64,000 bases of DNA from Enchytraeus crypticus (taxonomy: Eukaryota; Annelida; Clitellata; Enchytraeida; Enchytraeidae), in contig CAJHZI010000493.1 in NCBI GenBank assembly GCA_905160935.1, positions 1,074,501-1,138,500 of the forward strand, given 5' to 3'. This document shows positions 38,181-64,000 of this stretch, piece after piece. Within the stretch, counting starts at the first letter, position 1; each line of letters starts with the position of its first letter. Both the position numbers and the translations under genes were made by a program. Under the pieces are notes generated by a model. It was given only the letters and a program-made list of their open reading frames with translations. It ran no database searches and was not told the origin of the DNA.

Positions 38181-38418
38181 GTATGATTGATAGAGGAATG
38201 AACTGAACTGAAATTAAACATGTGTAGAACAGTACTACTTAAATACCATTCTTAGAATTGTTCAGTTTCATCATCGTTAAGCTGCCTCTGAGAATAAATA
38301 TTGAATCAGATGTGTTAACGTCTCCAACATAAAACACAGTAGCATAAACGGACGATAAATACTGCTACAACATCCCGAGCACCCCACACAGCTTCAGAAG
38401 AGGACGTTAGACAACAAG

Positions 38419-38671: not shown

Positions 38672-41600
38672 GTGAGTGTTTTATATACAGCTCTGTGAGT
38701 AAATCTAGTGAGTGTTTTATATACAGCTCTGTGAGCAAATCTAGTGAATGTTTATATACATGTGTAGGTATACACTCACTCTATGAGCCGAATTCAGTAG
38801 TGAATAAATTTTGAGCCCCACCCACAGAAATTTGTCTGGTTGCGTCACATGTCCTGAATAAGGCGGGGCGTAAGCAAAAAAAAGGTACTCTAAAAAAATT
38901 TCGGGCCCCCCTTAAATATTTCCTGGATCCTCCCCTGCATGTATACATGTGCGTAACCTATTATTGTATACATGTACGTATATGTACTGTACATGCATGC
39001 GTGCATGTACATACCGTAATACAGTAAAGTACTACTGTAGAACTGTATACATGAATGACATTGAATGAACATGTATACATCATACAATAATTCAGTAAAG
39101 TTTTACTGTATCACTGTACACTTGTATATATATCTACATGTATACATATATGTACAATTGTACATGTATACACCGTACAGTAATACGGTAAAATATTAAT
39201 GTATTAGTATGACTTAAACACCGTACAGTACATGTAAAACAATTGGTAATTAGTGTAGACCTACGTAAAAGCCTGAAGCATTGTACAGCTCTTGATACCT
39301 ATGAGTAGACAGGCTTTATATGAAGTGCTGTAGGAACAAGAGTAATAGTTGAACGTATATATGTCAAGTGTAACGTATCTAAATTAGACGACAAAACCGG
39401 AAGAAAGAAAATTGAGAAACAGAACAGATTTGGTTATAATTGGAGTGAAGACTTTTATTAGAGAAAGTAAACAGGTGATTTTCTTCAAACATTTCTGTTG
39501 AAAAAGCGTGAAAATATGATCAGATAAAGTGGATGAATAGCTTCACTTCTTAAAAGAGACTGTTAAGTTCAGTATAATATTATATTAGGATTAAGACTTA
39601 AGAGACTATCAAGCATCAAAAACCTGCTCAAAATTACTGATTCAAAACAGAATAGTTATTTCTTCATCTGGATTAAATTAAGCTTCACAAAAAGTGGTCT
39701 CTCTCTCTTAGTACACAGTGTATTAGCAGGTCCATGGCACATAACTTCTCCTCATGATAGAATTATATAATCGATTTTCTGTTTATTGCAACCCTATTTG
39801 GCATTTCTTCGTTTGCAAATTTGTCAGTCCATTAAATCTCCTTTATTCTTCTCCATAGCCACATTTTGAATTTTTCCAGTTTCCTTATACCTTCCTTTCT
39901 TAACGTTCATGTTTCACAACAGCACAGGAGCTTGGTACACACTAACGACCTAACAATCCTTATCTTTGAGGATTTCTTCAAACCTTTTTTAGTAGTTCTT
40001 TGCTCTAACAGAAGGCCTCTTTCGTGTGCTTTGTGGGTTAGACTTGAGAACGCTTGTAAGAGCTGGGTGGTATCGATATCACTAGCATGTCATCAATACT
40101 TATTCACTGATTGATCAATTTATTAATATAATTAGTGATTTAGTGAATATCATATTGATCTATGAAGCCTGTTTTACAGTTAACTTGATATATGAAATTA
40201 TTAGTAATAGTTTCTAGGAGGATAGACAATACATGTAGAAGTTTTGCGGATAAATGATGTCTATAAATTGGATCAGAGAACACATAAATATTATACTGAA
40301 GCAATAAAAAATTGTTTGGAAACTGAACACAGATAGTGTGTGAGAGAGAGAGAGAGAGAGAAAGAAAGAGAGAGAGAGAGAGAGAGACAGAGAAAGAGCG
40401 AGAGACTGAGTGACATATAGAGAGAGACTGAGAGACATAGAGAGAGAGACTGAGAGACATAGAGAGAGAGAGAGAGAGAGAGACTGAGAGACAGAGAGAG
40501 TAAGAGAGAGAGAGAAAGAGAGAGAGAGAGAGGCTGAGAGTTAGTGTGAGAGATAGAGACAGAGAGAGAGTGATACACCTATGATGTATTATGGCATGTT
40601 AAGCACGGTAGATAATAAGCTTGGTTATGTGAGACTGGCTGCCTGTTGGTGTATAATACAGCTTCAGTCTATGGAAGAGAGGCAGTGTATCACCACACAG
40701 GGGTTGAAGGGTGAAATCAGTATATCTCCTAATCCTTCTTCATCCAACGTTCTCCCACGAAATTGCCATTTTTAAATATTCCAAGTGTAGGCACGTAAAT
40801 ATGCAATATGATACAATGCGCGTATTGCATGTATTATGTGTGCACTACATACAGTGCACTGTATTAATTGTGTATTGTATGTAGTGTGCTGCAGTGCATT
40901 GTATTAATTGTGCACTGTATGTAGTGTGCACGATATTAAGTGTGCATTATCGGCAGTTTGCATAAAGATTAATTTTTTATAAAAGCTTTTTCGCCACTGG
41001 CACTGGCTCCATTGAGCCAGTCTCCTTCGATTAAGAACAATATGTTAATCTTAGCTTTACCAGCTTCTTTTACTTTTCTATTCTCTCTCAGACGTTTTCT
41101 TCTTCTCGGTCTCGGTTCTGATTTCATTTTAGTGTTGATTTGTCCAATTTCGATTTATAAATGTGAACTATTGCACACGTTTCATACTTTTAGAGGCAGA
41201 TAATGTAGAACTATGATTTACTTGTAGTTGTGTTTCCACATGAGAAGTCCTTCACATCTCCCTCGATTAAGAACAATACGTTAAATATTGATAATAATAT
41301 TAATAATAATAAAGCTTTAAGGTCCGTTTCTTCATACACGGATGATGTCAGGGACGTCCCCCAGCACATGTCACTACAAATCGATTCACCCCAAATGATC
41401 TGAAAAAACATGTGCTGAAAAGAAAGAAAAAGATCCTAAACGGTGCCGGTCTGTTTTATTATGTCATAAAATGGCGGATTGGTATATTCTATATTCTAGA
41501 AATCTCTTCAATGGAACTCTTATATAGTTCTTAGACTCTTCGAGTTCTTTGCCTCGATTTCTGCTTCACTTATTATTGTGAAAGTAAAGGTAGCAACATG

Positions 41601-42044
41601 CCGGAGGTGTGAGGGGGGGGGGAGAAATAGCAAGGAGGGATATAATGCTGAGAGAATAATGGAAACTGATGACACGAAGAGAGAGCATGATCACATTAAT
41701 ACTCGTCAGATAATATCAGTGGATAATATACGTGCTGTTTATTCACAGCAATGCTCTCAGCTTATTACAATTAAGTTCTCTGCTCTAAGCAATGCAATGA
41801 AGATTTAACGTACGGTTCCTCTCTCGCGGATGATGTCAGGGACGTCCATCCATCCTACCCTGAAGATAAGGTAGAGTTAAAGTTAACCTCAGATCTAGAA
41901 CCTCATTTACTCTCACCAGACTATCCCCTTTAATACAATATGGGGAGTCAATAAGATATATTTCACTGTTAACAAAGGAACAAAGGATATAGCGTGGACT
42001 TTTTTGGTAGCCAATTCTAATTGCCATCGTCCTGCCCAGATATA

Positions 42045-42095
<51 letters not shown>

Positions 42096-42178
42096 ATATA
42101 AATAAATATATCTGTATATATATATATTACATATATAGGAATATTTATATATATATATATATATTTATACAGTATATA

Positions 42179-42223
<45 letters not shown>

Positions 42224-45200
42224 TTTAGTACATTTTTCTATAGAAAACTGTCAGTTTTACAAGTTTTATAAGTTAATATTACGAAGTGTAGGTGATACGA
42301 TGAGATGTGAGAGGGGTGAGTGAATAGGATGAGAGGAGCGTGGGATGAATGGAAGGAGGGGTAGAGAGTGTGCGAGGTGCGAGATAAGAAACATCCGTCA
42401 CTCACGTGACACAACATCAGTAGCAGTGTAGCAGTCGTGTCCCGTGACACAGCGTCAGTAGCAGTCGTGTCACGTGACACAGCATCAGCAGCAGTCGTGT
42501 CACGTGATGAAACATCAGTAGCAGTCGTGTCACGTGACACAGTGTCACAAGAGATTGTATCAGTGGTGTTGGTCACTATTTAATATATTGCCTTACAAAT
42601 ATATTTATTTATTTATGAGAGGACTAACTCTTTGGTAGATTGAGTGATAGAATAACTGTTTATTTGATTTAAATAAATGGTTAAATTATTGCTTAATTTA
42701 TTGATTTACTGATTGATTGATTTACTTATTTTCTGATAGACTGATTGCTTGATGATTGATTGGCTGCTTGCTCGATTGATTAACTGATTGATTGATTCAT
42801 TGATCGATCGATTGATTGTTTAATTGACACACAGATTTTATAGGCACCCTCTCATTCTGCATATCTCTGTCTTGCTCACCTCTCTCAGTGAACTTCATCA
42901 GGCTGATGGGTCACAAGGGCTTCAGACACGCCGGGCTCATAGGCACAGTCATCCTCAGCGTCAGCTGTATCGGTACCTCCTTCGTGCCCAGCATGAACTG
43001 GCTCTTCCTCACCCATAGCCTCATGTACGGGATCGGCTCCAGTCTCCTCTACATGTCCTCCTCCCTCATCATCGGTGACTACTTCAACAAAGAACACAAG
43101 TACCACGTGCTCGCTACCAGCATCCTCCTGTGTGGCTATCCCGTGGGTGAGTGCTGGGAAAGATACATCCTTTATATCATTGCTATTTAAGCTTCTATAT
43201 TTTTGTATAAGAGATTTGTTATGTGGGCATTCTATAATTGCTAAGGTTTAAATTCGATTTAAACCCGTTTTTTAAGAGTGTATTTCTTATACTCCTATTG
43301 TAGGCCTAGTCTTCGACATTTGGTGTTTAAATGATATGTTGGTATTCTAAATAGTAAATCCTGGCCTCACCCGTCACAGACATCACTTTCGATTGCGAAA
43401 ACTGACGTTAAAATTATTTTGACAAGCTTTGATGCTAAAGTGGATTAATTCGATTTAAACCCGTATTTTAAGAGAGATTTTATCGACTCCCAAATTTAGA
43501 AAAATAAATGGAATCTTACACCTGTCATCTGGTGATACTTGTGATTTAATTTTATAATCATGAAATCAGGTTGTTATACGATTTGATAAAATAATATTTT
43601 TTAGATCAAAATTAATATTTTTTATTTAACGTCTAAAAGGGAATTCGAGTTGTGAGCGCCAACGATCCAGACATTGCTCTAAAAATTCCTTAAAGAATTA
43701 GAAAGGAAATGGTCAATTCATATCGCGACCCTTTGTTAAACTAATATTCATGGGAAAATAATGATGATGGTGATGATAAGTATTTTCTAATTTTGGACAT
43801 GCAATTAAAATTTACTGTAATTTAAATAAGTAATTAATTAATGGGTTGCATCATACATTTTGTAACATAACTAAACACCATTATTTTGACAGGAAGTTTT
43901 ATATTTAATCCATTCAACGCTTGGCTGATCAGCGCCTTCACGTGGAGGACGGCGTTCAGAGTGACGAGCGCCCTGGTGCTGCTCGTGGGCATCCCGTGCT
44001 GCTGGAACTTCACGGCCCGGGAGAGCATCACCGCCCAGCGCCTGTCCTCCACCGAGGAGGAGAGCGGCGGGCCCGATCCCGTCAGGGACGAGGTGGACGA
44101 CATATTCGCCTCGGAGGGAGAATCGATGCCGGGCGGTGTGGACGGGGTGAGTAGGGAGAAGAGATGGGCCAGTCTGCTGCTGGAGGTCAGACACAGGCCG
44201 GAGATAGCAATGTGGTTCATGGGAAACATGTTCAGCTACCTCGGCTTCTACATGCCCTTCGTCAACCTAGTATGTGTATACTCTCTCCTTTAGTTCTACA
44301 GGCGATATTTTAACATATCGCCTGTAAGCCGTCGTATGAAACATTGCGAATTTTATATTACAACTGTTTTCGTTATTTATTAAATCGTAAATGAAAATAT
44401 GCATTGCTTAGCTGATGTTAATTTACAAGTTTCTCTGATAAAGTCAGACTACACACACCGTACCATTATTTGTAGGGCCTACTAATTTATTTAAATCATT
44501 GTGTTCTGATAATTATGTTTAATCATTATGTCTAATCATTATATTATTAGACTCTAGTTTTGAATGTGTATGCTTTATCCCTGCCCGTGAAGATCATAAC
44601 GCTAGTATTTTATAAGTAGTCATGTTTTGATGACGCAAACAGCGTCTATTCAATAGTTGATCATGACGTCAACGTTTTAAGTCTACTCATGTTGCGATGA
44701 CGTAGGCATCGTACATGCAGGAGCAGGGTATAGACGCTACAGAGGGCTCTGTGGCCGTGACCTTGCTGAGTCTGGCAGAGTGTGTGACCTACATGGTGGC
44801 CTCGTTCCTGGGTGACTACCTCAAAGACAACCTCGTGTTCGTCAACATCGCGTCGTCAGGGGCGCTAGCTGTCATCTGTCTCGTCTGGCCTCTCATCGAC
44901 AAAGCCTACTGGGTCATACTCGCCATATCACTCTGTACGTTCTTCTATCAGTCTATAACTCAGCTTACTTATCAATCAATCAGATAAGTAATTATTCAAC
45001 CGAGAAGAATTCTAGTTATAACAATCAATACGTCCATAAATAATTCACTGACTCATCTTACTGATCAATTATCAGATAAATAATCAACTACTCGAGAAAC
45101 AAAATGGTTATATCAAAACGTTCACCCATCATTCATTGACTTATCGAACTAATCCATCAATCAATCCACTAATTAATCATTCATTGACTTATCGAACTAA

Positions 45201-47751
45201 TCCATCAATCAATCCATTAATTAATCATTCATTGACTTATCGAACTAATCCATCAATCAATCCACTAATTAATCATTCATTGACTTATCGAACTAATCCA
45301 TCAATCAATCCACTAAATAATCATTCATTGACTTATCGAACTAATCCATCAATCAATCCATTAATTAATCATTCATTGACTTATCGAACTAATCCATCAA
45401 TCAATCCACTAATTAATCATTCATTGACTTATCGAACTAATCCATCAATCAATCCACTAATTAATCATTCATTGACTTATCGAACTAATCCATCAATCAA
45501 TCCACTAATTAATCATTCATTGACTTATCGAACTAATCTATCAATCAATCCATTAATTAATCATTCATTGACTTATCGAACTAATCCATTAATCAATCCA
45601 CTAATTAATCATTCATTGACTTATCGAACTAATCCATCAATCAATCCACTAATTAATCATTCATTGACTTATCAAACTAATCCATCAATCAATCCACTAA
45701 TTAATCATTCATTGACTTATCGAACTAATCCATCAATCAATCCACTAATTAATCATTCATTGACTTATCGAACTAATCCATCAATCAATCCACTAATTAA
45801 TCATTCATTGACTCATCGAACTAATCAATCAGTCAACTAATTAACCATTCATTGACTCATCTTCCTATAGAATTAATGGAGCCATTAATTAACCGTTAAA
45901 TGACTCATATTCCTAATTAATCCACCAGACTACTAATTAACTTCAGCTGCTCTTCTTCCTAATCAATCAATCGAACCATTAATTAACCATTCAATGACTC
46001 ATCTTCCTAATCAGACCACTAATTAATCATTTATTGACTCATTTTCATAATCAATCAACCAGACCACTAATTAAACATTAAACGAGTCGTTTTCCTAATC
46101 AATCAATCATACAACTAATTAACCATTCAACGACTCATCTTCCAAATCAATTAATCAGACAATTAATCAACCATATGAGAAAAAAATGCATTAACCACTG
46201 CAGTCAAAGTCTTCTTCTTTTCTCTGCGTGACGTCACTTTGTGGACACCAGAGTAGCCTCTTTTACTTTTTGTCTCCACTGATACCGGTCCTGGGTATGA
46301 TCATACACATCACTCTGTGCTAGGTTATATTTAGGGTCTATTTGTTTTATATCTTTATTATATTGTTTAATTAAAGTATATTTATTTCCCATACCTAGTT
46401 TCATTTTATTATTTGTTATTCTATAATTTAGAGCTTTTCTTACTGGAGTATTTTCATCCAATCTTAGCATATGTCCTATCCAATTGAGAATTTTGAATTT
46501 TATTAATTCACTTCATGGCTTTTCTTGTGTTCATATAATGTAGGAGTAGTCATAGTAGTCAATGTCTACTATGTCTTGTAGATAGTCAGTCTCGAGAAAA
46601 TAGTGAACTATTCAGTATCGAGCAAAAATTAACCACTTTTGAACTTTTTGGTAATTTCATTTGTGTCTGCAGGAGAGTTTTTGGTAGTTAAAGAGAATAT
46701 ATTGAAGATTTAAATGTTGATAAGTTTTGCCTGTTTAACGAGCCGAAGCTCGTACCACCAATCTCGGACGAGAGCGTCTAACAAGGTTAGATATTCTGCG
46801 GAATATATCGAAACAATAAATGAAATATACTGTTGTGTATTTACTGATCTATTGATGATTTTTCTAAAAGCAATTAAACTTCAGTTTTATGGCTTTGAGA
46901 AAAATCATCACTGCATGTTTTGTATCAATTTGTAATATTTGTATTCTGCATAAATATAGAGTTTCATATCTTATTGCAATATATTGTATTGTACTTTACG
47001 TCATAGCACTATGTAAAACGTACTATATTCTACCGTACAGTATTTTACTGCACATTACTGTGCTGTACTATGCTGCACTGTACTGTACTGCACTCTACTG
47101 TACTGCACTGTACTGTACTGCACTCTACTGTACTGCACTCTACTGTACTATATTTTACTCTTCACTCCTGTACTTTACTTTGACGTACTATGCTGTACTG
47201 CATTGCCTGTACTGTACTGTATTTTTGCTATACATTACTGTACTGTAGTCTGCAGTACTGTAATGCACTCTATTTATTGCTCTGTATTGTACTGTAGAGT
47301 GGATTTTGTATTTGGCTAAGCTATGTATTATGTTCTTGGTACAGCTATATATTGTGTATTTGGCACAGCTATGTATTGTGTATTTGACACAGCTATGTAT
47401 TGTGTATTGGCACAGCTATGTATTGTGTATTTGACACAGCTATGTATTGTGTATTTGACACAGCTATGTATTGTGTATTGACACAGCTATGGGCGGGTTC
47501 CTGGGGCTGAACATAGTCTATACGTATGCGGCATCAGGAGAGGTGACGGGACTGCCTATAGACGTCGCCTGGTCTCTAACTAACTTCTGGTCCGGTATCG
47601 GCATCTTAATGGGACCCCTGTTCACTGGTGCGTCTTGAGAGAGATAGAGAGAGAAAGAGAGAGAGAGAGAGATAGAGAAAGAGAGAGAGAAAGAGAAAAA
47701 AGAAAGAGAGAGAGAGACTGAGAGAGAGAGAGAGTGGGAGAGATAGAGAAT

Positions 47752-47812
<61 letters not shown>

Positions 47813-48095
47813 GTAGGTAGGTAGGTAGGTAGGTAGGTAGGTAGGTAGGTAGGTAGGTAGGTAGGTAGGTAGGTAGGAAGGTAGGTAGAAAGGTAGGTAG
47901 GTAGGTAGGTAGGTAGGTAGGTAGGTAGGTAGGTAGGTAGGTAGGTAGGTAGGTAGGTAGGGAGGTAGGTAGGTAGGTAGGTAGGTAGGTAGGTAGGTAG
48001 GTAGGTAGGTAGGTAGGTAGGTAGGTAGGTAGGTAGGTAGGTAGTTAGGTAGGTAGGTAGTTAGGTAGGTAGGTAGGTAGGTAGATAGATAGATT

Positions 48096-48144
<49 letters not shown>

Positions 48145-49657
48145 GTAGATAGGTAGATAGGTAGATAGGTAGATAGGTAGATAGAGAGAGAGAGGGGGAG
48201 AACGAGAGAGATAAAGAGAGAGAGAGAGAGACAGAGAGAAAGATAGAAAGATAGAGAGAGAGGGGGGGGGGTATAGAGAGAAAGAAACGGAGAGGGAGAG
48301 GGGAGGATAAAAAGATAGGCCATTGTTCCTTAATTTTAGGCTGCTGATGATGATGCACCATTGAAATATTTTTGCTTCGCCTGTCACTGTTGTTTTCTAC
48401 GTGATAAGAACTTACATTACAACTCTGTGACTTTGAGGTACAGCGTAATTGATTATTTTTAGTGGATCAGGCATTTGATGTGTCCTTATCCAATTGACTA
48501 CTGTTATTGTTTTGTTATTGTTTTGTTCTTGTTATGTTATTGTTATGAAATTGTTATGTAATTGTTGTTATTGCTATGTTAGTGTTATGTTCTTAAGTAA
48601 TTGTTATGGTATTGTTCCATAAAAACTGCAATAAATGTATATAATTTTAGTATTCTGTATAAATTTTATTTATTCAAGAACTGATAAAATACACTGATAG
48701 AAGCACTTTTCCATACCATATCGGCGACTAGCTAGATAGAGCAATGCCCTCACTAGGGACCGATTGAATAGTATTGGGCTTGTTTTACTTTCATTGCATC
48801 ATTCATTGTGTTTGTTGTAAGCTCGTAGTTTTATTTCTCTTTTTGTACACTTTGTATGTATGCGACTTTGCACTGAGGTTGTTGAATAAACATATATCTC
48901 TCTCTTGTTATATTAATCTATGTTATGCTATGTTAAATAATTCCATCACTAGTCAATGAGGATATTAATTGTTGAAATAACAATTTTCACAATTATCTAT
49001 CATTTAAACTGAACGATGACCTAATAATTAATTAAATATCAGCATATGCAGTCAACGTTCAATTTGCTCATACATTCAAGCATTCTTTTTAGTGTTTAAA
49101 GTTCGTAATTGATGTTTAGCAGGCCTATTATACTGTGTGTATATTTAAATGTTTAGTGTTGTACTTTGCAGAATGTATCACTCCACATGTTAATAACATG
49201 ACACGCAGGCTTTATCTTTGTGTAGCAAGATATCTTCATGTAATAGCTTATTGAATAACGTTGAAGTTGTTGTACAACTGAACGCTGTGACTTATTTCTC
49301 GCAGGTTTTGTGGTCGACATAAGGCACAAGTATCACGACGTGTTTAGAGTGGTGGGTGTGGTTTATCTCATAGACACCGCCTGTTTTGCCGCCATACCCC
49401 TCCTACAGCGGTGGAGAGGAGAGGCCAAGGACGATGTGCTCGGAAGTGGAACAAAGTTCGAGACCTTCAAAATAAAGAGGTCAAGTTCAAGGACGAGCGT
49501 AAAAGAGAACGGCGAGGTATCTGGGTCAGTGGGAGGGACCACAACAGAAAGAGGACAAGTAGGAGGAGCCTATGGGACTCTGAGTAATTTTCACGAACCC
49601 TCTTCGCCCCCGGCCTACACAGCCGTGGCTCAACAGCTGTCGTTCAGTGAGACCTAG
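38419..49657 (+). CDS. Monocarboxylate-transporter-like MFS protein (SLC16 type), six exons found
   Basis: Exons 38419-38671, 42889-43146, 43893-44269, 44706-44934, 47487-47627 and 49305-49657 join in phase (1,1,0,1,1) at GT-AG sites into 536 residues with one stop. Evidence for the family: an N-terminal cytosolic lead, then [12 protein letters not shown] as helix 1; [15 protein letters not shown] then CGYPVGG, the 'YF.KRR.LA.G....G' loop of MCTs; WRTAFRV after helix 6; a long acidic central loop; helices 7-12; and a ~90-residue polar tail. MCTs carry monocarboxylates, thyroid hormone or aromatic amino acids across the plasma membrane with H+ or by facilitated diffusion; the substrate cannot be told here. 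The canonical DGGWGW motif before helix 1 is reduced to DRKGW. About 20 residues covering helix 2 are missing between exons 1 and 2, so an exon is unlocated, lost from the assembly or truly absent. Exons are much GC-richer than introns. Confidence 0.8.
38663..38757. repeat. 36-bp tandem repeat spanning the exon 1 donor
   Basis: Two and a half units of 36 bp (AAATCTAGTGAGTGTTTTAT plus ATACAGCTCTGTGAGT), starting inside the last codons of exon 1. Each unit carries the donor CTA|GTGAGT and a second GT near CTCT|GTGAG. Confidence 0.9.
38760..39783. other. Transporter intron 1, left part
   Basis: Unique AT-rich DNA with TGTACATGTATAC-rich palindromic stretches at 38935-39190. No helix-2 exon was found here. 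Confidence 0.4.
39785..40085 (-). mobile_element. Decayed LINE reverse-transcriptase fragment (RTE-like)
   Basis: The minus strand reads [55 protein letters not shown] with stops in between. This is the 'YG.E.WTL.K....RLE.FEMW..RRM..I.W....TNEEVL' block near the C-terminus of RTE-type reverse transcriptases. It is antisense in transporter intron 1 and clearly inactive. Confidence 0.8.
40120..41285. other. Transporter intron 1, middle part
   Basis: Interrupted (GA)n at 40338-40572, a degenerate GTGCACTGTATTA-type array at about 40840-40935, and a small SINE-1-like scrap at about 40992-41075 (CGCCACTGGCACTGGCTCC; TTAGCTTTACCAGC). No exon found. Confidence 0.5.
41288..41450 (-). mobile_element. 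ACGTC-tail family copy with (TTA)n end
   Basis: ATAATAATATTAATAATAAT, AGGTCCGTTTCTTCATACAC, ATGTCAGGGACGTCCCCCAG and TCACTACAAATCGATTCACC; nearly collinear with the 5333 copy. Confidence 0.7.
41797..41848 (-). mobile_element. ACGTC-tail fragment
   Basis: GATTTAACGTACGGTTCCTC and ATGATGTCAGGGACGTCC. Confidence 0.55.
42040..42225. repeat. (TA)n tract
   Basis: Three (TA)n blocks with short interruptions in transporter intron 1. Confidence 0.95.
42405..42555. repeat. 30-bp minisatellite (CAGTAGCAGTCGTGTCACGT)
   Basis: About five units of 24-30 bp containing CACGTGACAC, i.e. a repeated CACGTG E-box palindrome. Confidence 0.9.
42650..42835. repeat. GATT-rich tract before exon 2
   Basis: Degenerate (TTGATTGA)n immediately upstream of the exon 2 polypyrimidine tract. 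Confidence 0.8.
42889..43146 (+). CDS. Transporter exon 2 (helices 3-5)
   Basis: Acceptor TCACCTCTCTCAG and donor GTGG|GTGAGT, 258 nt, phase 1 at both ends. It encodes [15 protein letters not shown] (the helix 2-3 loop), two helices, then the conserved loop [16 protein letters not shown] leading to CGYPVG. Joining to exon 1 gives GKS-M-NFIRL, which lacks the W-x-x-S-I helix 2 of other MCTs. Confidence 0.82.
43356..43430 (+). mobile_element. SINE-1 3' fragment
   Basis: AAATCCTGGCCTCACCCGTC, ACATCACTTTCGATTGCG and AACTGACGTTAAAATTA; the 5' half is missing. Confidence 0.65.
43634..43784 (+). mobile_element. H-GAT family 3' fragment
   Basis: GGGAATTCGAGTTGTGAGCG, CCAGACATTGCTCTAAAAAT, TATCGCGACCCTTTGTTAAA and (ATG)n-type tail GATGATGGTGATGAT; diverged. 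Confidence 0.65.
43893..44269 (+). CDS. Transporter exon 3 (helices 5-7 and central loop)
   Basis: Acceptor TATTTTGACAG, donor CTA|GTATGT, 377 nt. It encodes [23 protein letters not shown], helix 6, an acidic cytosolic loop ([18 protein letters not shown]) and the start of helix 7 with [16 protein letters not shown] short perfect hairpin (44296-44306 with 44313-44323) lies just after its donor. Confidence 0.85.
44330..44700. other. Transporter intron 3
   Basis: Unique AT-rich sequence. TGACG-containing half-CRE motifs occur near 44628-44703. No further exon. Confidence 0.45.
44706..44934 (+). CDS. Transporter exon 4 (helices 8-10)
   Basis: Phase 0 start at [18 protein letters not shown], continuing [20 protein letters not shown] (the MCT 'LLS..G......G...D' pattern). 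The acceptor GATGACGTAG has a poor pyrimidine tract; an in-frame alternative, TACATGCAG, lies 15 nt downstream. Donor CTCT|GTACGT. Confidence 0.8.
45129..46190. repeat. 48-bp minisatellite in transporter intron 4
   Basis: About 15 almost identical units of 48 bp (CATTGACTTATCGAACTAAT plus CCATCAATCAATCCACTAAT and TAATCATT) at 45129-45840, then decaying AATTAACCATT units to about 46190. The unit length (16 codons) keeps a 234-codon frame open ([16 protein letters not shown] repeats); it is not a gene. Confidence 0.93.
46206..46515 (-). mobile_element. 5'-truncated LINE 3' end (RTE-like)
   Basis: The minus strand reads [20 protein letters not shown], then an Asn/Lys-rich linker and [16 protein letters not shown] to a stop at about 46234. 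This is the 'W.GH..R.......+AL....+.........DR..WR' C-terminus of RTE-type reverse transcriptases. A (GAA)n-like tail follows (TTCTTCTTTTC on the plus strand). It lies antisense in transporter intron 4. Its A-rich codons differ from the other LINE remnants, so it is probably another subfamily. Confidence 0.8.
46516..47035. other. Transporter intron 4, unique part
   Basis: AT-rich; no exon seen. Confidence 0.4.
47040..47290. repeat. CTGTACTGCACT-type array
   Basis: Degenerate 5-10 bp units (CTGTA, CTGCACT), about 250 bp. Confidence 0.88.
47331..47492. repeat. 24-bp array reproducing the exon 5 acceptor
   Basis: Six to seven units of 23-24 bp (ACAGCTATGTATTGTGTATT plus TGAC). The last unit overlaps the true acceptor and the first exon bases (ACACAG|CTATG), so every unit holds an AG|CTATG acceptor look-alike. 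Confidence 0.92.
47487..47627 (+). CDS. Transporter exon 5 (helices 10-11)
   Basis: Acceptor TTGACACAG, donor ACTG|GTGCGT, 141 nt. It encodes [20 protein letters not shown] and [20 protein letters not shown], matching MCT helices 10-11 (the 'G......G....GP...G' spacing). The acceptor and first seven exon bases are repeated upstream in a 24-bp array. Confidence 0.8.
47640..48285. repeat. GA / GATA / GGTA compound microsatellite
   Basis: (GA)n at 47640-47745, (GATA)n to about 47811, (GGTA)n for about 270 bp to 48083, (GATA)n again with GGTA mixtures to 48180, then (GA)n and a G-run at 48265-48272. It starts 12 bp after the exon 5 donor. Confidence 0.97.
48290..49300. other. Transporter intron 5, unique part
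   Basis: A loose GTTATTGTTATG repeat lies at 48500-48620; otherwise unique. No exon until 49305. Confidence 0.45.
49305..49657 (+). CDS. Transporter exon 6 (helix 12, C-terminal tail, stop)
   Basis: Acceptor TTATTTCTCGCAG. It encodes [17 protein letters not shown], helix 12, and a polar tail rich in S/T/G/E ending QQLSFSET before TAG. The tail has no PDZ motif I can be sure of (C-terminal SET). Confidence 0.85.
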
Positions 49658-51500: not shown

Positions 51501-51754
51501 GTATTTATATGTTTAGAGTTAGATTTTATTGGTCAACGCATTTGCGCATAACTTTCACATTGACGTTTCACATTCACATTGATTTCACATTGATTCGCAT
51601 GTTTAGAGATATTTAATTTATTCTTTGACGCAAATATTTCACATTGTGTTTAGTAAGAAAAATTAGAACTATTTTCATGATATTGGGATGTACATGTATA
51701 TACCACTATATAGCATTTAGATATTGAGGTGTTTACATTACAGTTGATGTTCTG

Positions 51755-52020
51755 ATCATGACTGATCATGACTGACTAATCATGACTGATCATGACTGGT
51801 CATGACTGACTAATCATAACTGGTCATGACTGACTGATCATGACTGGTCATGACTGACTGATCATGACTGGTCATGACTGACTGATCATGACAGCTTATG
51901 ACTGATCATGACTGACTAATCATGACTGGTTATGACTGACTGATCATGACTGATCATGACTGGTCATGACTGACTGATCTTGACTGGCCATGGCTGACTA
52001 ATCATGACTGGTCATGACTG
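51755..52020. repeat. 24-bp minisatellite (GATCATGACTGGTCATGACT)
   Basis: About 11 units alternating TGATCATGAC and TGGTCATGACTGAC. Rich in TGATCA and TCATGA palindromes. Confidence 0.92.
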
Positions 52021-52021
52021 G

Positions 52022-52410
52022 TTCCACTCAACCTCTCCTGCATTTGAGTTTATCCGAGAAAAAAACGGATCAACTGATCAGCGGTTACAGTGGGAATTGA
52101 AAGCGAGGGGAACGATAAGAAATTTTCTGGTAATGTTTAAAGGGTGTCTGAGTTTCAAATATGGGCTACTAGCAGGAGAACCACCTCAGAAAATGAGAGC
52201 TAGGGAGACGCTGTTCCTCTGCGTCCCCTCACTTTAATTTAGTTGTGGTATCACTCTACTCCCATCTTTGAACTCTAAGAATTATTTTATGCAGCTTTTA
52301 GTGGAATTTAGATTTCTTCATTGAGCTTTCTTAACTTTTTCATTTTAGTTTACACTCCCAAGTGCAAACCGGAAATAATCCAGAAGCTCATCTGAATATG
52401 TGTAACGGAA
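52022..52410. other. Unique DNA with an unsupported frame
   Basis: The plus frame at 52004-52237 (78 codons) begins inside the minisatellite and shows no domain or splice sites. It may hold an exon of an unknown gene, but I cannot support it. Confidence 0.35.
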
Positions 52411-52414
52411 ACAA

Positions 52415-52735
52415 CACTGGTCAATATAGTGTTAACATTGTGTTAACATAGACTGAACTAACACTGGTTAACAATGTGTTAACATAGGCTAAACTAACAC
52501 TGGTTAACATTTTGTTAACATAGACTGAACTAACACTGGTAAACATAGTGTTAACATAGACGGAACTAACATTGGTTAACATTGTGTTAACATAGACTGA
52601 GCTAACACTGGTAAACATTGTGTTAACATAGACTGAACTAACACTGGTTAACATTTTGTTAACATAGACTAAACAACACTGGTCAACATTGTGTTAACAT
52701 AGACCGTTATTTCAGTCTATGTTAACGCTAACAGT
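52415..52735. repeat. 36-bp minisatellite (GTTAACATAGACTGAACTAA)
   Basis: About nine units of about 36 bp with CACTGGTTAACATTGT. A GTTAAC palindrome occurs twice per unit. Confidence 0.92.
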
Positions 52736-52794
52736 TTAGATTTGAGAGAGACCCTTAATATTAACAAGGACTGCTTTGTAACTTTGTAACCTTG

Positions 52795-53110
52795 CTTTGA
52801 TATTGATAGAGTTAATAAATATCATCACTGCTTTGAAATTGATAGAACTATTAAATATCATCACTGCTTTGATATTGATAGAACTAATAAATATCATCAC
52901 TGCTTTGAAATTGATAGAGTTAATAAAATATCATCACTGCTTTGATATTGATAGAGTTAATAAAATATCATCACTGCTTTGATATTGATAGAGCCAATAA
53001 ATATCATCACTACTTTGATATTGATAGAGCTAATAAATATCATCACTGCTTTGATATTGATAGAGCTAATAAATATCATCACTGCTTTGACATGGATAGA
53101 GTTATTAAAA
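52795..53110. repeat. 36-bp minisatellite (ATATCATCACTGCTTTGATA)
   Basis: About nine units of 35-36 bp with TTGATAGAGTTAATAA. One-base length changes move the frame. Unrelated to the preceding 36-bp array, 60 bp away. Confidence 0.92.
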
Positions 53111-53190
53111 TATCTTTATTATGCTATATTAGGTTTATCAATATCATGATCAACATATGCCATTTGACGGGCATCTTAGACTTGTTACAC

Positions 53191-55410: not shown

Positions 55411-55691
55411 TAATATAAATTAATTAAAATATGATGCGAATTCTTTTTGAAAGGGAATAAAAGTAAAAAAGTGCATAAGCCTATATAACTGCACTTATAA
55501 AAAGAAAAAGCTGCGGCTCCACTTTAGTACTGCACGAAGGCTTATATAATAAATATCTGAAGTTAATGAAAGATGTCATATGTAGTAGCCTATTTGAAAG
55601 TACTGAATAACTGTATTTTTCAGACATAGCAGCTTCACTAATTGCGAAATTTCCTTTGGTTTTAATTTTATTTGCAGTTATAAAAAGTCGC

Positions 55692-58600
55692 ATGGACAAT
55701 GAGGAAATGATGAGTTACGCAGAGGAAGAAAATGATGAATCATCCACGTCGCACGGTGCAGACGCAGAGGAGATGACTCTAATGATATGTATAGAGGAAG
55801 GAAAAGAGGCGTTGGCCATATCTCAGATGAAGAGAGGACTTTCAGCAGAACAATATGTAACAAGTAATGGTCGTACAGCGCTGATGATGGCTGTTGAATG
55901 TCAGAGATCTGCTGAATTAGTGCGAGCAGTGCTTCAACATGGTGGATCATGTAACGTTGACAAGAGGAACAATCGTGGTCACACAGCTCTCATGTTAGTT
56001 GCTGAGAGAGGTAACAATGACGTCACGAGGACACTGATAGAATCTGGAGCTGATGTTAATGCTAGAGATACTAAGAACGGAATGACAGCGCTGATGTTTG
56101 CTGCTTGGAGAGGTAGAAATGACGTCACGACGACACTGATAGAATCTGGAGCTGATGTTAATGCTAGAGATACTAAGAACGGAATGACAGCGCTGACGTT
56201 TGCTGCTTGGAGAGGTAACAATGACGTCATGAAGTCACTGATAGAATCTGGAGCTCATGTTAATGCAAGAGATACTGAGAACGGAATGACAGTGCTGATG
56301 TATGCTGCTGAGAGTGGTAACAATGACGCCATGAGGTCCCTGATAGAATCTGGAGCTGATGCTAATGCTAGAGATACTGAGAGCGGAATGACAGTGCTGA
56401 TGTATGCTGATTGGAAAGGTAGAAATGACGTCATGAGGACATTGATAGAATCTGGAGCTGATGTTAATGCTAGAGATACTAAGAAAGGGAAGACACCGCT
56501 GATATATGCTGCTGAGAGTGGTAACAATGACGTCATGAGGTCGCTGATAGAATCTGGAGCTGATGTTAATGCTAGAGATACTGAGAACGGAAAGACAGTC
56601 CTGATGTATGCTGCTGAGAGTGGTAACAATGACGTCATGACGTCGCTTATAGAATCTGGAGCTGATGTTAATGCTAGAGATACTGAGAGCGGAATGACAG
56701 TGCTGATGTATGCTGCTGAGAGTGGTAACAATGACGTCATGAGGTCGCTGATAGAATCTGGAGCTGACGTTAATGCAAGAGATACTGACAACGGAATGAC
56801 AGCGCTGATGTTTGCTGCTTGGATAGGTAGAAATGACGTCATGAGGACATTGATAGAATCTGGAGCTGATGTTAATGCTAGAGTACTAAGAAAGGGAAGA
56901 CCCGCTGATATATGCTGCTGAGAGTGGTAACAATGACGTCATGAGGTCGCTGATAGAATCTGGAGCTGATGTTAATGCTAGAGATACTAAGAAAGGGAAG
57001 ACACCGCTGATATATGCTGCTGAGAGTGGTAACAATGACGTCATGAGGTCACTGATAGAATCTGGAGCTGACGTTAATGCTAGAGATACTGAGAACGGAA
57101 TGACAATGCTGATGTATGCTGATTGGAAAGGTAGAAATGAAGTCATGAGGACATTGATAGAATCTGGAGCTGATGTTAATGCTAGAGATGCTGAGAACGG
57201 ACAGACAGCGCTGATGTTTGCTGCTTGGAGAGGTAACAATGACGTCATGAAGTCACTGATAGAATCTGGAGCTGATGTTAATGCAAGAGATACTGAGAAC
57301 GGACAGACAGCGCTGATGTTTGCTGCTTGGAGAGGTAACAATGACGTCATGAAGTCACTGATAGAATCTGGAGCTGATGTTAATGCAAGAGATACTAAGA
57401 ACGGAATGACAACGCTGATGTTTGCTGCTTGGACAGGTAGAAATGACGTCATGAGGACATTGATAGAATCTGGAGCTGATGTTAATGCTAGAGATACTGA
57501 GAAAGGGAAGACAGCGCTGATGTATGCTGCCGAGAGTGGTAACAATGACGTCATGAGGTCGCTGATAGAATCTGGAGCTGATGTTAATGCTGGAGATACT
57601 GAGAACGGAAAGACAGCCCTGATGTATGCTGCTAGGAGTGGTAACAATGACGTCATGAGGTCACTGATAGAATCTGGAGCTGACGTTAATGCTAGAGATA
57701 CTGAGAACGGAATGACAATGCTGATGTATGCTGATTGGAAAGGTAGAAATGAAGTCATGAGGACATTGATAGAATCTGGAGCTGATGTTAATGCTAGAGA
57801 TGCTGAGAACGGACAGACAGCGCTGATGTTTGCTGCTTGGAGAGGTAACAATGACGTCATGAAGTCACTGATAGAATCTGGAGCTGATGTTAATGCAAGA
57901 GATACTGAGAACGGACAGACAGCGCTGATGTTTGCTGCTTGGAGAGGTAACAATGACGTCATGAAGTCACTGATAGAATCTGGAGCTGATGTTAATGCAA
58001 GAGATACTAAGAACGGAATGACAACGCTGATGTTTGCTGCTTGGAAAGGTAGAAATGACGTCATGAGGACATTGATAGAATCTGGAGCTGATGTTAATGC
58101 TAGAGATACTAAGGAAGGGAAGACACCGCTGATATATGCTGCTGAGAGTGGTAACAATGACGTCATGAGGTCGCTGATAGAATCTGGAGCTGATGTTAAT
58201 GCTAGAGATACTGAGAGCGGAATGACAGTGCTGATGTATGCTGCTGAGAGTGGTAACAATGACGTCATGAGGTCGCTGATAGAATCTGGAGCTGATGTTA
58301 ATGCTAGAGATACTGAGAACGGAATGACAATGCTGATGTATGCTGATTGGAAAGGTAGAAATGACGTCATGAAGACATTGATAGAATCTGGAGCTGATGT
58401 TAATGCTAGAGATACTAAGAACAGAATGACAGCGCTGATGTATGCTGCTTGGAGAGGTAACAATGACGTCATGAGGTCACTGATAGAATCTGGAGCTGAT
58501 GTTAATGCAAGAGATACTGAGAAAGGGAAGACAGCGCTGATGTATGCTGCCGAGAGTGGTAACAATGACGTCATGAGGTCGCTGATAGAATCTGGAGCTG

Positions 58601-61600
58601 ATGTTAATGCTGGAGATACTGAGAACAGAATGACAGCGCTGATGTTTGCTGCTTGGAAAGGTAGAAATGACGTCATGAGGACATTGATAGAATCTGGAGC
58701 TGATGTTAATGCTAGAGATACTAAGAAAAGGAAGACACCGCTGATATATGCTGCTGAGAGTGGTAACAATGACGTCATGAGGTCGCTGATAGAATCTGGA
58801 GCTGATGTTAATGCTAGAGATACTGAGAGCGGAATGACAGTGCTGATGTATGCTGCTGAGAGTGGTAACAATGACGTCATGAGGTCGCTGATAGAATCTG
58901 GAGCTGATGTTAATGCTAGAGATACTGAGAGCGGAATGACAGTGCTGATGTATGCTGCTGAGAGTGGTAACAATGACGTCATGAGGGCGCTGATAGAATC
59001 TGGAGCTGATGTTAATGCTAGAGATACTGAGAACGGAATGACAATGCTGATGTATGCTGATTGGAAAGGTAGAAATGATGTCATGAGGACATTGATAGAA
59101 TCTGGAGCTGATGTTAATGCTAGAGATACTAAGGACAGAATGACAGCGCTGATGTATGCTGCTTGGAGAGGTAACAATGACGTCATGAAGTCACTGATAG
59201 AATCTGGAGCTGATGTTAATGCTAGAGATGCTGAGAACGGACAGACAGCGCTGATGTTTGCTGCTTGGAGAGGTAACAATGACGTCATGAAGTCACTGAT
59301 AGAATCTGGAGCTGATGTTAATGCAAGAGATACTAAGAACGGAATGACAACGCTGATGTTTGCTGCTTGGAAAGGTAGAAATGACGTCATGAGGACATTG
59401 ATAGAATCTGGAGCTGATGTTAATGCTAGAGATACTAAGAAAGGGAAGACACCGCTGATATATGCTGCTGAGAGTGGTAACAATGACGTCATGAGGTCGC
59501 TGATAGAATCTGGAGCTGATGTTAATGCTAGAGATACTGAGAAAGGGAAGACAGCGCTGATGTATGCTGCCGAGAGTGGTAACAATGACGTCATGAGGTC
59601 ACTGATAGAATCTGGAGCTGACGTTAATGCTAGAGATACTGAGAACGGAATGACAATGCTGATGTATGCTGATTGGAAAGGTAGAAATGAAGTCATGAGG
59701 ACATTGATAGAATCTGGAGCTGATGTTAATGCTAGAGATACTAAGAACAGAATGACAGCGCTGATGTATGCTGCTTGGAGAGGTAACAATGACGTCATGA
59801 AGTCACTGATAGAATCTGGAGCTGATGTTAATGCAAGAGATACTGAGAACGGACAGACAGCGCTGATGTTTGCTGCTTGGAGAGGTAACAATGACGTCAT
59901 GAAGTCACTGATAGAATCTGGAGCTGATGTTAATGCAAGAGATACTAAGAACGGAATGACAACGCTGATGTTTTATGCTTGCAGAGGTAGAAATGACGTC
60001 ACGAGGACACTGATAGAATCTGGAGCTGATGTTAATGCTAGAGATACTAAGAACAGAATGACAGCGCTGATGTATGCTGCTTGGAGAGGTAACAATGACG
60101 TCATGAAGTCACTGATAGAATCTGGAGCTGATGTTAATGCTAGAGATGCTGAGAACGGACAGACAGCGCTGATGTTTGCTGCTTGGAGAGGTAACAATGA
60201 CGTCATGAAGTCACTGATAGAATCTGGAGCTGATGTTAATGCAAGAGATACTAAGAACGGAATGACAACGCTGATGTTTTATGCTTGCAGAGGTAGAAAT
60301 GACGTCACGAGGACACTGATAGAATCTGGAGCTGATGTTAATGCTAGAGATACTAAGAACGGAATGACAGCGCTGATGTTTGCTGCTTGGAAAGGTAGAA
60401 ATGACGTCATGTGGACATTGATAGAATCTGGAGCTGATGTTAATGCTAGAGATACTAAGAACAGAATGACAGCGCTGATGTATGCTGCTGAGAGTGGTAA
60501 CAATGACGGCATGAGGTCGCTGATAGAATCTGGAGCTGATGTTAATGCTAGAGATACTGAGAACGGGAAAAAACGTACTGATGTAGCTGCTGAGCGTGGT
60601 AACAAGAAGTCAGACCGTCGCTTTATCAGAATCTGGAGCCGGATGTTAATGCTAGAGATACGGAGAGGGGAAATGACAGGCTGATGTATGATGCTGAGAG
60701 TGGTAACAATGACGTCATGAAGGTCGATGATAGAATCTGGAGGCTATGTGAAGGTAGAGATACTGAGAACGGAATGACAATGCTGATGTATGCTGATTGG
60801 AAAGGTAGAAATGATCTCATGAGGACATTGATAGAATCTGGAGCTGATGTTAATGCTAGAGATACTAAGAACAGAATGACAGCGCTGATGTATGCTGCCG
60901 AGAGTGGTAACAATGACGTCATGAGGTCACTGATAGAATCTGGAGCTGATGTTAATGCAAGAGATACTGAGAAAGGGAAGACAGCGCTGATGTATGCTGC
61001 CGAGAGTGGTACCAATGACGTCATGAGGTCGCTGATAGAATCTGGAGCTGATGTTAATGCTGGAGATACTGAGAACGGAAAGACAGTCCTGATGTATGCT
61101 GCTGGGAGTGGTAGCAATGACGTCATGAGGTCACTGATAGAATCTGGAGCTGATGTTAATGCTAGAGATACTGAGAACGGAATGACAGTGCTGATGTATG
61201 CTGCTAGGAGTTGTCGTAATGACGTCGTGAGGACATTGATAGAATCTGGAGCTGATGTTAATGCTAGACTTAAGAACGGAATGACAGTGTTGATGTATGC
61301 TGCTTCGGGAGGTAGCAGTGATATTATGAGGACACTGATAGAATCTGGAGCTGATGTTAATGATAGAGTTACTAAGATCGGAAAGATAGTGCTGATGTAT
61401 GCTTCTTCTGCTTGGCATGGTATCAATGACGTCATGAGGACACTGATAGAATCTGGAGCTGATGTTAATGCTAGAGATACTAAGAACGGAATGACAGTGC
61501 TGATGTTTGCTGCTTGGAGCGGTAGAAATGACGTCATGAGGATATTGATAGAATCTGGAGCTGATGTTAATGCTAGAGATACTAAGAACAGAATGACAGC

Positions 61601-64000
61601 GCTGATGTGTGCTGCTTGGAGAGGTAACAGTGACGTCATGAAGTCACTGATAGAATCTGGAGCTGATGTTAATGCAAGAGATACTAAGAAAGGGAAGACA
61701 GCGCTGATGTATGTTGCTGAGAGTGGTAACAATGACGTCATGAGGTCGGTGATAGGATCTGGAGCTGATGTTAATGCTAGAGATACTGAGAACGGAATGA
61801 CAGTGCTGATGTATGCTGCTAGGAGTGGTAATAATGACGCCGTGAGGACACTGATAGAATATGAAGCCGATGTTAATGTTAGAGATATACACGGAGTGAC
61901 AGCGTTGATGTATGCTGCTGGGATAGGTAGAAACGATGTCGTGAGGACACTGATAGAATTTAGTGCTGATGTTAATGTTAAGGATTTATACGGGGCGACT
62001 GCGTTGATTAAGGCTGTTGCGGGAGATAAAAATTATATACATGTAGTGAAGACGTTATTAGAAGCTCAAGCTGACATCAATGCTAAAGATGAGGACGAAG
62101 CTACGGCGCTAGTATTAGCCGCAAGAGGCTTTAAAAGTTCAATATTCCAATTGCTACAACTAAAACTTTTGGAAACAGATAGGCCTACACAAAACATATT
62201 TTCCCGAACCACAATCATGCTATTCGAAGAGCTTTCTCAGTTTGACATCGGTGATAATATTCTTAAATTTAAAATGTGGAACATCAAGAATGAATCATGG
62301 AGTGACATGTCTTTGGAAGAATCCTCTTTAGAAAGATTAGAAGAATCTATTAGGAGTGATACCTCTGATGTCATAGCATACGACTTGTCTGCGAATGAAG
62401 AGTTTGACAGGACTAGTTACTCTCTTACTGGATGTTCTAATGGAGAGTTTCAAGACAAAGCAATAAATTTAATCTTAAAACTATGTTGTAGCAAACAAGA
62501 GAATTATCGGTTTTTCACCCGCGCTAAATTTACCAGTGTGAGGGATAAAATATGTCGCATGAGTAACGTTAAAATACTGGTAAATGTTCCTAAAGGTTCA
62601 GTGTATGATTCAGCTCAAGTACATTTAAGAGAACACTACAGAAAAGAGCAAATAAGAAATTGTAACAAGCCGCTCTCATCGTGTTCAGGTAAAGATCGAT
62701 GTTTACGACATTTTACTATGACAGCTGTGTGGATCATTGATGATCCAGGTGATGTTGAGATAGAAAGCTGTTATGATAGCTCTATTGAAATTGCATCTAT
62801 TGTAATATCGGATAACCAAGGCAATAAAGCAATAGCTAATATTAAAAGAGGGAGTTTCATAAGCTGGGAAAATATTCAAATTGAATTTAGCAAACTTTCC
62901 GGTAGCAAAGAGAAACTCTGTGTGTATGCCGTAATGCTGCCACTAGAACCTTACAAAGTAAATGAACTGAATATTTATGAAACAAAGAAAATCCTAAGAA
63001 TATGTATTTCAAGATACCATGGATTCGCAGACATTCTGTATATATATTCTGGAAACATACATGATAATGAATGTTTATTAGACGTCATATTAGATACTCA
63101 CTTGAATTTTGAAAGTTCCTTTGACCTGTCTCAACTTCTTGAACTTCTGATACGAAGCGGATTAAATTTAAACAACTGCTCAAAAAAGTCTCTTCTGGAA
63201 GAAATATTGAATCGGATTTGTCGTTTCACAAATATTGAGGAGATTTTGAATATTTTGATAAATAATTTCAGAACTCACTTGTGTCTGACAAATCAACAGA
63301 GAATTCGCATAGTTTGTAAATTCGTAGGTATGAAATTAGGTGAATACTTTTCGCTTGACGATAAATTGTATGATTTACCATCTGATGCAGCGAACGTATT
63401 GAAACAACATGTTGATTTTTCGACTATTCAAAAAGTAGATAGGCAAATGTTCGAATATCAGCGCTTTTGCTCGGAATGTACGAATAAATTAAAGCATTTT
63501 AACCTGCCAATACCCGAATTATGCAACCCTTATCTACTACTGCAATCAAATGATCTTGACGCTTGTCCAAATACGTATGAACTTGAAGACATAACACATC
63601 AAGACTGTAATTGTTCAAAAATTTGCAGAGTTTCCTATATCATAAGATGTTTGTTTAAAATGCATCAGTACAAGCGAATTAGCTCATGCGAACATAGTAA
63701 ACGCTCTGACGTTATTGTGGATTACACTACGGATTCGTTATTCTTTAGGAAGAATTGCAAGAGCTTCGCGGTCGACACACTTGGTAGAAATATATTACAT
63801 ATTTTCCCTTTCATTGAAGTAGAACTTCAATCTACCCTAGGCCCATATAGCGTCTATTATTTCACGACACTACTGAGGACATTTCATCACTCTCTTATCA
63901 ACCTAGCTGACAATTTTGGACAAACCCCGCTGCATTATTTGGCAAGGTATGGCAATAGAGAGGAATTTGAAATGTTTCAGCGATTAAACGTTGATAGTGA
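55692..64000 (+). CDS. Giant ankyrin-repeat protein (one exon, runs off the window; two frame-break clusters)
   Basis: The exon appears to begin at 55678 after a strong acceptor (TTTTAATTTTATTTGCAG). The first ATG inside it is 55692 (CGCATGGAC), followed by an acidic leader (DNEEMMSYAEEENDES), which I take as the start; a 5' UTR exon or an internal exon are both possible. From about residue 58 the protein is about 61 ankyrin repeats of 34 residues (pattern NGMTALMYAAESGNND, VMRSLIESGADVNARDT), then a C-terminal region of about 600 residues ending in two more ankyrin-like units (LGRNILHIF; DNFGQTPLHYLARYGN), still open at 64000. Ankyrin repeats mediate protein binding; no partner can be named. 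No signal peptide or membrane helix is evident. Frames: 55692 to about 56884 in one, about 56906-60684 in the next, from about 60770 back in the first. Lesions are single-base indels. Either assembly error or a decaying gene could explain them; the intact remainder favours the former. Confidence 0.8.
56883..56906 (+). other. First frame-break cluster in the ankyrin exon
   Basis: Against the repeat consensus, one A is missing in GAG(A)TACTAAG and another in GAC(A)CCGCTG, 18 bp apart. The net loss of 2 nt shifts the frame and gives a stop at 56919-56921. Confidence 0.85.
60560..60770 (+). other. Second, broad frame-break and mismatch cluster in the ankyrin exon
   Basis: Two repeat units show a sudden burst of substitutions and indels (for example GGGAAAAAACGTACTGATG, AAGAAGTCAGACCGTCGC, GTCATGAAGGTCGATGATAG), while units on both sides are near consensus. 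The frame returns to the first one afterwards. The pattern fits poorly resolved reads in a long array better than natural drift. Confidence 0.75.
62150..64000 (+). other. C-terminal region of the ankyrin protein, unrecognised
   Basis: About 600 residues without frame breaks. Visible landmarks: NVKILVNVPKGSVYDSAQVH at about 62565-62625; MTAVWIIDDPGDVEIE at about 62718-62765; a Cys-rich stretch near 63475-63700 (CSECTNKL, DCNCSKICR, SSCEHSKRS); and ankyrin-like VDTLGRNILHIF and NLADNFGQTPLHYL near the end. The codons are not repetitive, so this part is under ordinary coding constraint. I cannot assign a domain. Confidence 0.7.

Follow-up and report, generated by a model that had tools for sequence, protein, structure and literature searches.

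A long ankyrin array in Enchytraeus crypticus: probable N-terminal region of a cGAS-like protein (Mab-21 superfamily) from an 18-locus family

The window studied here is a stretch of 64,000 nucleotides from the annelid Enchytraeus crypticus (assembly GCA_905160935.1, contig CAJHZI010000493.1, positions 1,074,501 to 1,138,500 of the forward strand), which corresponds to C400:1074501-1138500, C400 being our label for the contig, in a searched genome of 524 Mb and 802 contigs. The mitochondrial contig of this genome, C802 (15,205 bp), has its protein genes and most tRNA genes on one strand, in an order typical of annelids; the published mitochondrial genome of the species has the gene order of Lumbricus (PMC8460440). 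Towards the 3' end of the window lies a gene in which a long ankyrin array precedes a middle region conserved in its family and a Mab-21/cGAS-like nucleotidyltransferase region that lies shortly beyond the window end (Table 1). The array comprises 60 units in register, matched by Pfam Ank families and flanked on each side, as judged by eye, by one further and more diverged ankyrin repeat, so that the "about 61" repeats counted in a preliminary description of this DNA were a fair estimate. The program TRF reported a period of 102 nucleotides with 58.5 copies (56006-61977). The repeats are indeed units of 34 codons, as that description had it, 52 of the 60 measuring exactly 102 nt; the others are four in-frame variants at the 3' end (99, 108, 99 and 105 nt) and four frame-shifting units (100, 104, 103 and 101 nt). 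By eye, the extra residue of the 34-residue units sits in the beta-turn finger, which reads D-x-x-x-G as compared with D-x-x-G in the 33-residue units of paralogs.

Table 1. Features of the ankyrin array gene (window numbering, unless another label is given).
Feature	Position	Strand	Remarks
Putative 3' splice acceptor TATTTTTCAG	55614..55623	+	inferred; exon start would be 55624
First in-frame ATG of the long exon	55692..55694	+	next ATGs at 55707 and 55710
Ankyrin array	55965..62087	+	60 units in register; Pfam Ank families
Unit 10	56883..56982	+	identical to unit 6 but for two 1-nt deletions; stop at 56919-56921
Longest exact repeat (410 bp)	copy 1 57024..57433; copy 2 57636-58045	+	offset 612
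Three-unit (306-bp) block, units 38-40	59737..60042	+	99.3% identical to units 41-43 (60043-60348)
Patch in units 46-48	60553..60860	+	16 gap events and 14 mismatches versus closest clean units; frame restored
Middle region (575 aa)	62151..63875	+	conserved across the family, 23-65% identity to the window copy; 17-row alignment A1
Second short ankyrin stretch, start	63900..64000	+	Pfam Ank_3, 27.6 bits (cut-off 22.3), scanned on L015:1-2262
Mab-21/cGAS-like nucleotidyltransferase region	C400:1138679-1140340 = L015:280-1941 (179-1840 bases past window end)		same frame as array end

The 47 core units (those of 102 nt among units 2-52) share on average 89.1% of their DNA in pairwise comparison. 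Neighbouring units had been described as almost identical, synonymous sites included, and neither statement holds: adjacent core units are 89.0% identical, not above random order (p 0.59), the mean protein identity of core pairs is 79%, and the proportion of synonymous differences over whole units (pS 0.096) is close to that of nonsynonymous ones (pN 0.112), i.e. synonymous sites are not specially conserved. The copying of six-unit (612-bp) and three-unit blocks was, for its part, borne out. Units six apart are on average 91.7% identical, a value as high being reached in none of 2,000 shuffles of the unit order, whereas none of the other eight lags tested was significant (p 0.06 for lag 3). 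Identity rises to 97.5% between units 11-16 and units 17-22, two six-unit blocks, and to 97.9% in the best-matching pair of 612 bp, units 20-25 with units 33-38; the exact repeat and the three-unit block of Table 1 add to them. At the DNA level 35 of the 47 core units are distinct, and protein types reappear in shuffled order; this recurrence and the six-unit periodicity make the array a higher-order repeat built from several unit types. Internally conserved repeat arrays have been delimited by repeats more than 85% identical across at least 100 aa (PMC4986451); 46 of the 47 core units have a best partner unit of at least 85% protein identity, but the mean pair stands at 79%.

The array had been taken for a single open coding exon, whereas we found three stop-to-stop frames (55611-56921, 56890-60684 and 60603-66161), the reading frame shifting by -2 at unit 10 and by +2 over units 46-48, with a net change of zero. 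Of units 2-52, only units 10 and 46-48 contain gap events, 18 in all, and the other 47 are free of them. Outside this range, gaps also appear in the alignments of unit 1 and of the diverged units 53, 54, 59 and 60, all of which keep lengths that are multiples of three. The array of the paralog C400b holds a deletion-rich patch of its own, as judged by eye. From this confinement of the gaps, the mutual cancelling of the shifts and the C400b patch, we take the frame breaks of this copy to be, most probably, errors of assembly in the form of uncorrected long-read sequence. A pyrimidine-rich AG comparable to the putative acceptor stands at the matching place in C400b, C3b, C3c, C121a and C121b; none was seen in the stretch of C3a that was inspected.

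The last frame runs through the nucleotidyltransferase region to a last sense codon 2161 bases beyond the window end (66161 in window numbering). Pfam Mab-21 (PF03281) scores 28.7 bits there (L015:1-2262), above its curated cut-off of 24.1, and is found at E<=0.01 in 15 of the 17 family members scanned; Mab-21_C appears in one of the 17 (E 0.0087). Against the PDB, a profile of 17 members retrieved the cGAS-like receptors (cGLRs) Cv-cGLR1 (8gjw, E 7.7e-10) and Sp-cGLR1 (8gjy, E 3.3e-5), engineered cGAS entries (E 2.9e-4 and 7.8e-4) and other cGAS entries (0.014-0.025), aligning to 8gjw in two stretches, the second one weakly. The catalytic E and D are present in all 17 aligned rows, and the third catalytic Asp in 13 of the 16 rows reaching it; it is replaced in C136a, C136b and C136c, as well as in C757. 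Published criteria for cGLRs comprise an h[QT]GS or G[S/G] motif, the acidic motifs [DE]h[DE]h and h[DE]h with 50-90 residues between them, homology to the nucleotidyltransferase core and C-terminal helix bundle, structural homology, and ligand-stimulated synthesis of a second messenger (PMC9980059). The acidic motifs occur in the window copy as EFDF and, later, IDI. As to structural homology, a Foldseek search with an AlphaFold2 (AF2) model, itself of low confidence, placed 8gjw (Cv-cGLR1) on top (E 1.4e-10) and human cGAS next. By eye, the gene ends in a Thr/Ser/His/Glu-rich tail (L015:1973-2997) encoded by a second, shorter tandem repeat; similar short repeats extend past the stop, and C3c has a similar tail.

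The preliminary description could not match the architecture to a described family; its defining part, the nucleotidyltransferase, lies beyond the window end. The middle region matches no known family: in the window copy no Pfam family was found at E<=0.05, and Foldseek gave no match at E<=0.001 with an AF2 model of mean predicted local distance difference test (pLDDT) 54.7. Five Pfam families, each hit by one member, four weak PDB matches (E 0.044-0.37) and Foldseek matches no better than E 0.052 were all judged to be chance. L038 was excluded from alignment A1 on account of its stops, and L032 (C757), with one stop, from alignment A2.

A protein search of the genome with the middle region gave 20 places, or 18 loci after joining split matches, and tblastn found the nucleotidyltransferase region at all 18. 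At sequence level the family combines ankyrin repeats, the conserved middle region and a nucleotidyltransferase-like region. Pfam ankyrin repeats were also found in C121a and in the distant members scanned (C202a, C473 and C717), and C3a, C3b and C3c each have a frame open from the array through the gene end. Genome-wide there are 32 Mab-21 matches, the strongest lying outside the array family; C121 and C173 hold further long frames. While the 60 units of the window were counted with a DNA anchor, those of paralogs were counted with a family-type protein anchor, which undercounts the diverged repeats of C717, C473, C202a and C121a, where Pfam finds several. So counted, there are 33 units in C121b (within one open frame), 27 in C400b, 21 in C757, 14 in C3a, 9 in C3c, 8 in C3b, 4 in C121a and one each in C202a, C202b, C473 and C717. 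C136c has 33 and C136b 22, despite 99.7% identity where they align, which hints, within one assembly, at a change of length, assembly or haplotypes being the alternatives. The DNA of the array matched 53 places on eight contigs. A related array, with 68-72% DNA identity to that of the window, lies at C130:97585-99668, on a contig without a middle-region match. Three copies on C136 (43275-45086, 77836-79744 and 133127-135034) and the one at C757:50759-52651 combine in-frame stops or frame breaks with loss of the third catalytic Asp, and C136b and C136c have stop codons in common; these C136 and C757 copies, long arrays included, are apparently decaying.

Recent expansion or homogenisation, already suspected in the preliminary description, is supported by the origin of the best-matching units. 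With ties counted, all 51 window units compared with 56 units of other genes have their best match in their own gene, as do 8 of 8 in C400b; the fraction is 3 of 6 in C121b and 3 of 17 in the C136 genes. Synonymous divergence (dS) separating the window copy from C400b amounts to 0.22 for the middle region and 0.14 for the nucleotidyltransferase, while it is about 0.10 among units of the window array. This lower value is consistent with an expansion or homogenisation of the window array after the split from C400b. In the tree C121a and C121b are sisters (support 100/100), from which we infer that long arrays would have arisen separately, at least twice. Outside the array, the ratio of nonsynonymous to synonymous divergence (dN/dS) in five genes, with ten pairs for each region, is 0.62-0.99 in the middle region and 0.42-0.71 in the nucleotidyltransferase. 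Such raised values fit immune genes but also relaxed constraint.

Where the units vary was compared with DARPins, whose sequences among our PDB matches vary at residues 2, 3, 5, 13, 14, 26 and 33 of the 33-residue repeat, which we take to be the DARPin library positions. Mapped onto the 34-residue unit they give a contact set of positions 3, 4, 6, 14, 15, 27 and 34; the set was taken from DARPins after the position table of the window had been inspected and before the tests on other genes. The mean nonsynonymous difference at this set was compared with that of random sets of seven positions, leaving out the out-of-register units of paralogs and the genes with fewer than five in-register units (10 of 18); dN/dS tables were made with units of exactly 102 nt. 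The test was significant in five of eight arrays: window (p 0.016), C400b (p <0.0001), C3a (p 0.011), C3c (p 0.031) and C121b (p 0.005, 6 units). With longer sequence it was also significant for the 34-mers of C121b (p 0.0012, 20 units) and the 33-mers of C757 (p 0.018, 14 units). At the contact set of the window array pN is 0.222 and pS 0.096, a ratio of 2.3 (block bootstrap 2.03-2.65); the ratio is 2.5 in C400b, 3.9 in C3c, 1.4 and 3.1 in the 34-mers and 33-mers of C121b, and 2.1 in C757, pS being zero in C3a. This enrichment of variation at paratope positions speaks for the idea, also put forward in the preliminary description, that the array is a binding surface. A clean negative control from the C136 genes was given up, since C757, which has a stop and lacks the third Asp, shows the pattern, and since the arrays of C136b and C136c are near-copies.

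From these lines of evidence we propose, with a probability of roughly 0.6, that the array forms the N-terminal portion of a cGAS-like immune sensor (Mab-21 superfamily) belonging to the 18-locus family, and that the arrays of this family evolve like those of fungal NOD-like receptors (NLRs). The ankyrin solenoid would act as a recognition surface that binds a ligand or partner, and the middle region would couple it to the enzyme. Ligand binding would switch on the nucleotidyltransferase, whose nucleotide product would act as a signal through STING, with new surfaces arising, as in fungal NLRs, from the duplication and exchange of units. On three contigs the genome has ten matches to the STING ligand-binding domain above the cut-off, one match passing only together with its neighbours. 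Exons resembling this domain lie on C790, C276 and C406, apparently in more than one gene.

Several observations weigh against this proposal. On the side of the enzyme, the window copy reads VGN, with GN replacing GS, and so lacks even the looser G[S/G] activation-loop motif, present as VGS in the other 16 of 17 rows; Q or T precedes GS in none of the 17 rows, which leaves the strict h[QT]GS motif absent; and 114 residues separate the acidic motifs of the window copy, more than the published 50-90. The AF2 model has a mean pLDDT of 47, i.e. low confidence, and a TM-score to 8gjw of 0.51, or 0.34 when normalised to the query instead of to 8gjw. When the PDB was searched with a single sequence, the 60 matches listed out of 205 were all ankyrin or DARPin entries, and the STING matches are exon-sized pieces. 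Judging from its motifs, the window gene is a relative of the cGLRs and may function as one, though without the strict published motif, and the catalytic ability of this copy, with GN for GS, is doubtful. On the side of the array, own-gene best matches are in the minority in short arrays (C3b, 1 of 4; C3c, 1 of 5); the position test was not significant in C136a (p 0.09), C136b (p 0.32), C136c (p 0.39) and the 33-mers of C121b (p 0.061, 8 units); and array units are not mutually independent. The whole-unit dN/dS of 1.18 has an interval (0.98-1.42) that includes 1, recurrent variants (29 nonsynonymous to 6 synonymous) come close to the ratio of about 3:1 among sites, variation as strong is seen at positions 8, 17, 22 and 23, outside the contact set, and positions 27 and 34 of the set are nearly invariant in the window array.

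The first three of these last observations would also fit a neutral expansion of the array by unequal crossing-over, the positional pattern then coming from constraint of the fold on consensus positions, without selection for diversity. Ankyrin contact positions are inherently little constrained, and the C136 arrays, which have no positional pattern, still give pN/pS of 1.3-1.45. Constraint alone, however, should not raise pN over pS as it is raised at the contact set in the window, C400b, C3c, C121b and C757, so that we regard neutral turnover as somewhat unlikely. Far less probable, in our opinion, is the explanation offered in the genome paper for an expansion of 19 ANK genes, perhaps the same as the present loci: ankyrin adaptors that link membrane and cytoskeleton, some of them possibly gained by horizontal transfer; the main text of that paper contains no mention of "cGAS" or "Mab-21" (PMC8460440). 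A Mab-21 nucleotidyltransferase domain is present here, and Pfam scans of the window gene showed no ZU5, UPA or death domain. Cytoskeletal ankyrins carry a ZU5-UPA-death domain tail, and an ankyrin of the ANK1/2/3 kind was rejected in the absence of any supporting domain in these scans.

The remaining alternatives concern the window copy itself. If its two frame breaks were real, they would truncate the product about 409 codons after the first ATG, and the array would drift in a decaying gene while relatives stay active. The GN conserved as GS elsewhere would agree with this, as would the middle-region dN/dS, which is highest in pairs that include the window copy (0.77-0.99 versus 0.62-0.68 in the six other pairs), and decay does occur in the family, in C136b and C136c with their common stops and lost third Asp. 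We nevertheless hold it to be unlikely, as the breaks lie inside the array, the following frame is open over 1,853 codons, the clustered indels with sharp edges have the look of uncorrected long reads in a hybrid assembly made with MaSuRCA, and the array of C400b has its patch too. That assembly combined PacBio and Illumina reads, 80.6% of the PacBio reads mapping back (PMC8460440), and it may have produced a wrong number or order of 102-bp units, making the size and order of the array partly an artefact. This is a minority possibility that deserves to be taken seriously, given the indel patches and the unequal anchor counts of the nearly identical C136b and C136c. Against it stand the many distinct linked variants among the core units and the array of C121b, whose 33 anchors in a single open frame indicate that the family does have long arrays, whether or not the window count is correct.

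If the array does belong to a cGAS-like sensor, one may go further, though only tentatively, and see in this family an animal counterpart of the fungal NLR repertoire: cGAS-like enzymes gated by natural DARPin-like arrays, with a fast turnover of units and differences between individuals. Recognition would then evolve through repeat turnover while the signalling enzyme remains fixed, which would offer a concrete animal case where recognition may diversify in this way. A variable ankyrin surface joined to a cGAS-like enzyme would suggest that such an enzyme can be rewired for protein sensing; it is worth noting that 87% of cGLRs are described as single enzymes without added signalling domains, many of them with unknown ligands (PMC9980059). 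At least some of the ankyrin expansion described for this model species of soil toxicology would also gain an alternative reading. Each half is already known; of the combination of a long variable ankyrin array with a cGAS-like enzyme, no report was found in a literature search of limited depth.

Elsewhere in the window, exon-sized frames at 38359-49657 resemble, by eye, a major-facilitator transporter of the monocarboxylate (SLC16) kind. The region is generally repeat-rich, with minisatellite or simple-repeat stretches at 5700-6360, 45052-45840, 47518-48466, 51752-52022 and 52431-53114. HEM4, CreS_N and other odd Pfam matches on repetitive open reading frames were disregarded, and a tRNA scan of the 64-kb window found nothing.

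Among known systems, the closest in domain content are cGLRs with ankyrin repeats. Three cGLRs of the coral S. pistillata carry additional fused domains, ANK and death domains among them; fusion of ankyrin repeats to a Mab-21/cGAS-like nucleotidyltransferase and radiation of the genes are common to both (PMC9980059). By comparison, the array of the window family is long, with a higher-order repeat, and a region of about 575 aa intervenes; the window copy also has a longer catalytic spacing and lacks the GS serine. In the way their arrays are built, the worm genes recall fungal NLRs with highly internally conserved ANK, TPR or WD repeats. The ankyrin repeats of such NLRs are described as variable in length and under positive selection mostly on the binding face, and only 0.8% in metazoa show internal conservation of this kind (PMC4986451). 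Both groups have units that resemble each other within a gene, indications of concerted evolution and a variable ankyrin binding face (PMC4986451, PMC2873952). Fungal NLR genes, however, carry NACHT or NB-ARC and other effector domains, none of which appeared in Pfam scans of the window gene, and their repeat-number variation and positive selection were shown on alleles, whereas the worm arrays are known from one assembly. Compared with DARPins, the worm units are natural and 34 residues long, the additional residue lying in the beta-turn finger; they also vary at positions 8, 17, 22 and 23, and in the window array they are nearly constant at 27 and 34, two positions that differ among DARPins. 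Like DARPins, they combine a constant framework with variable residues that follow the D, the G and the AA of each repeat (PMC8683736).

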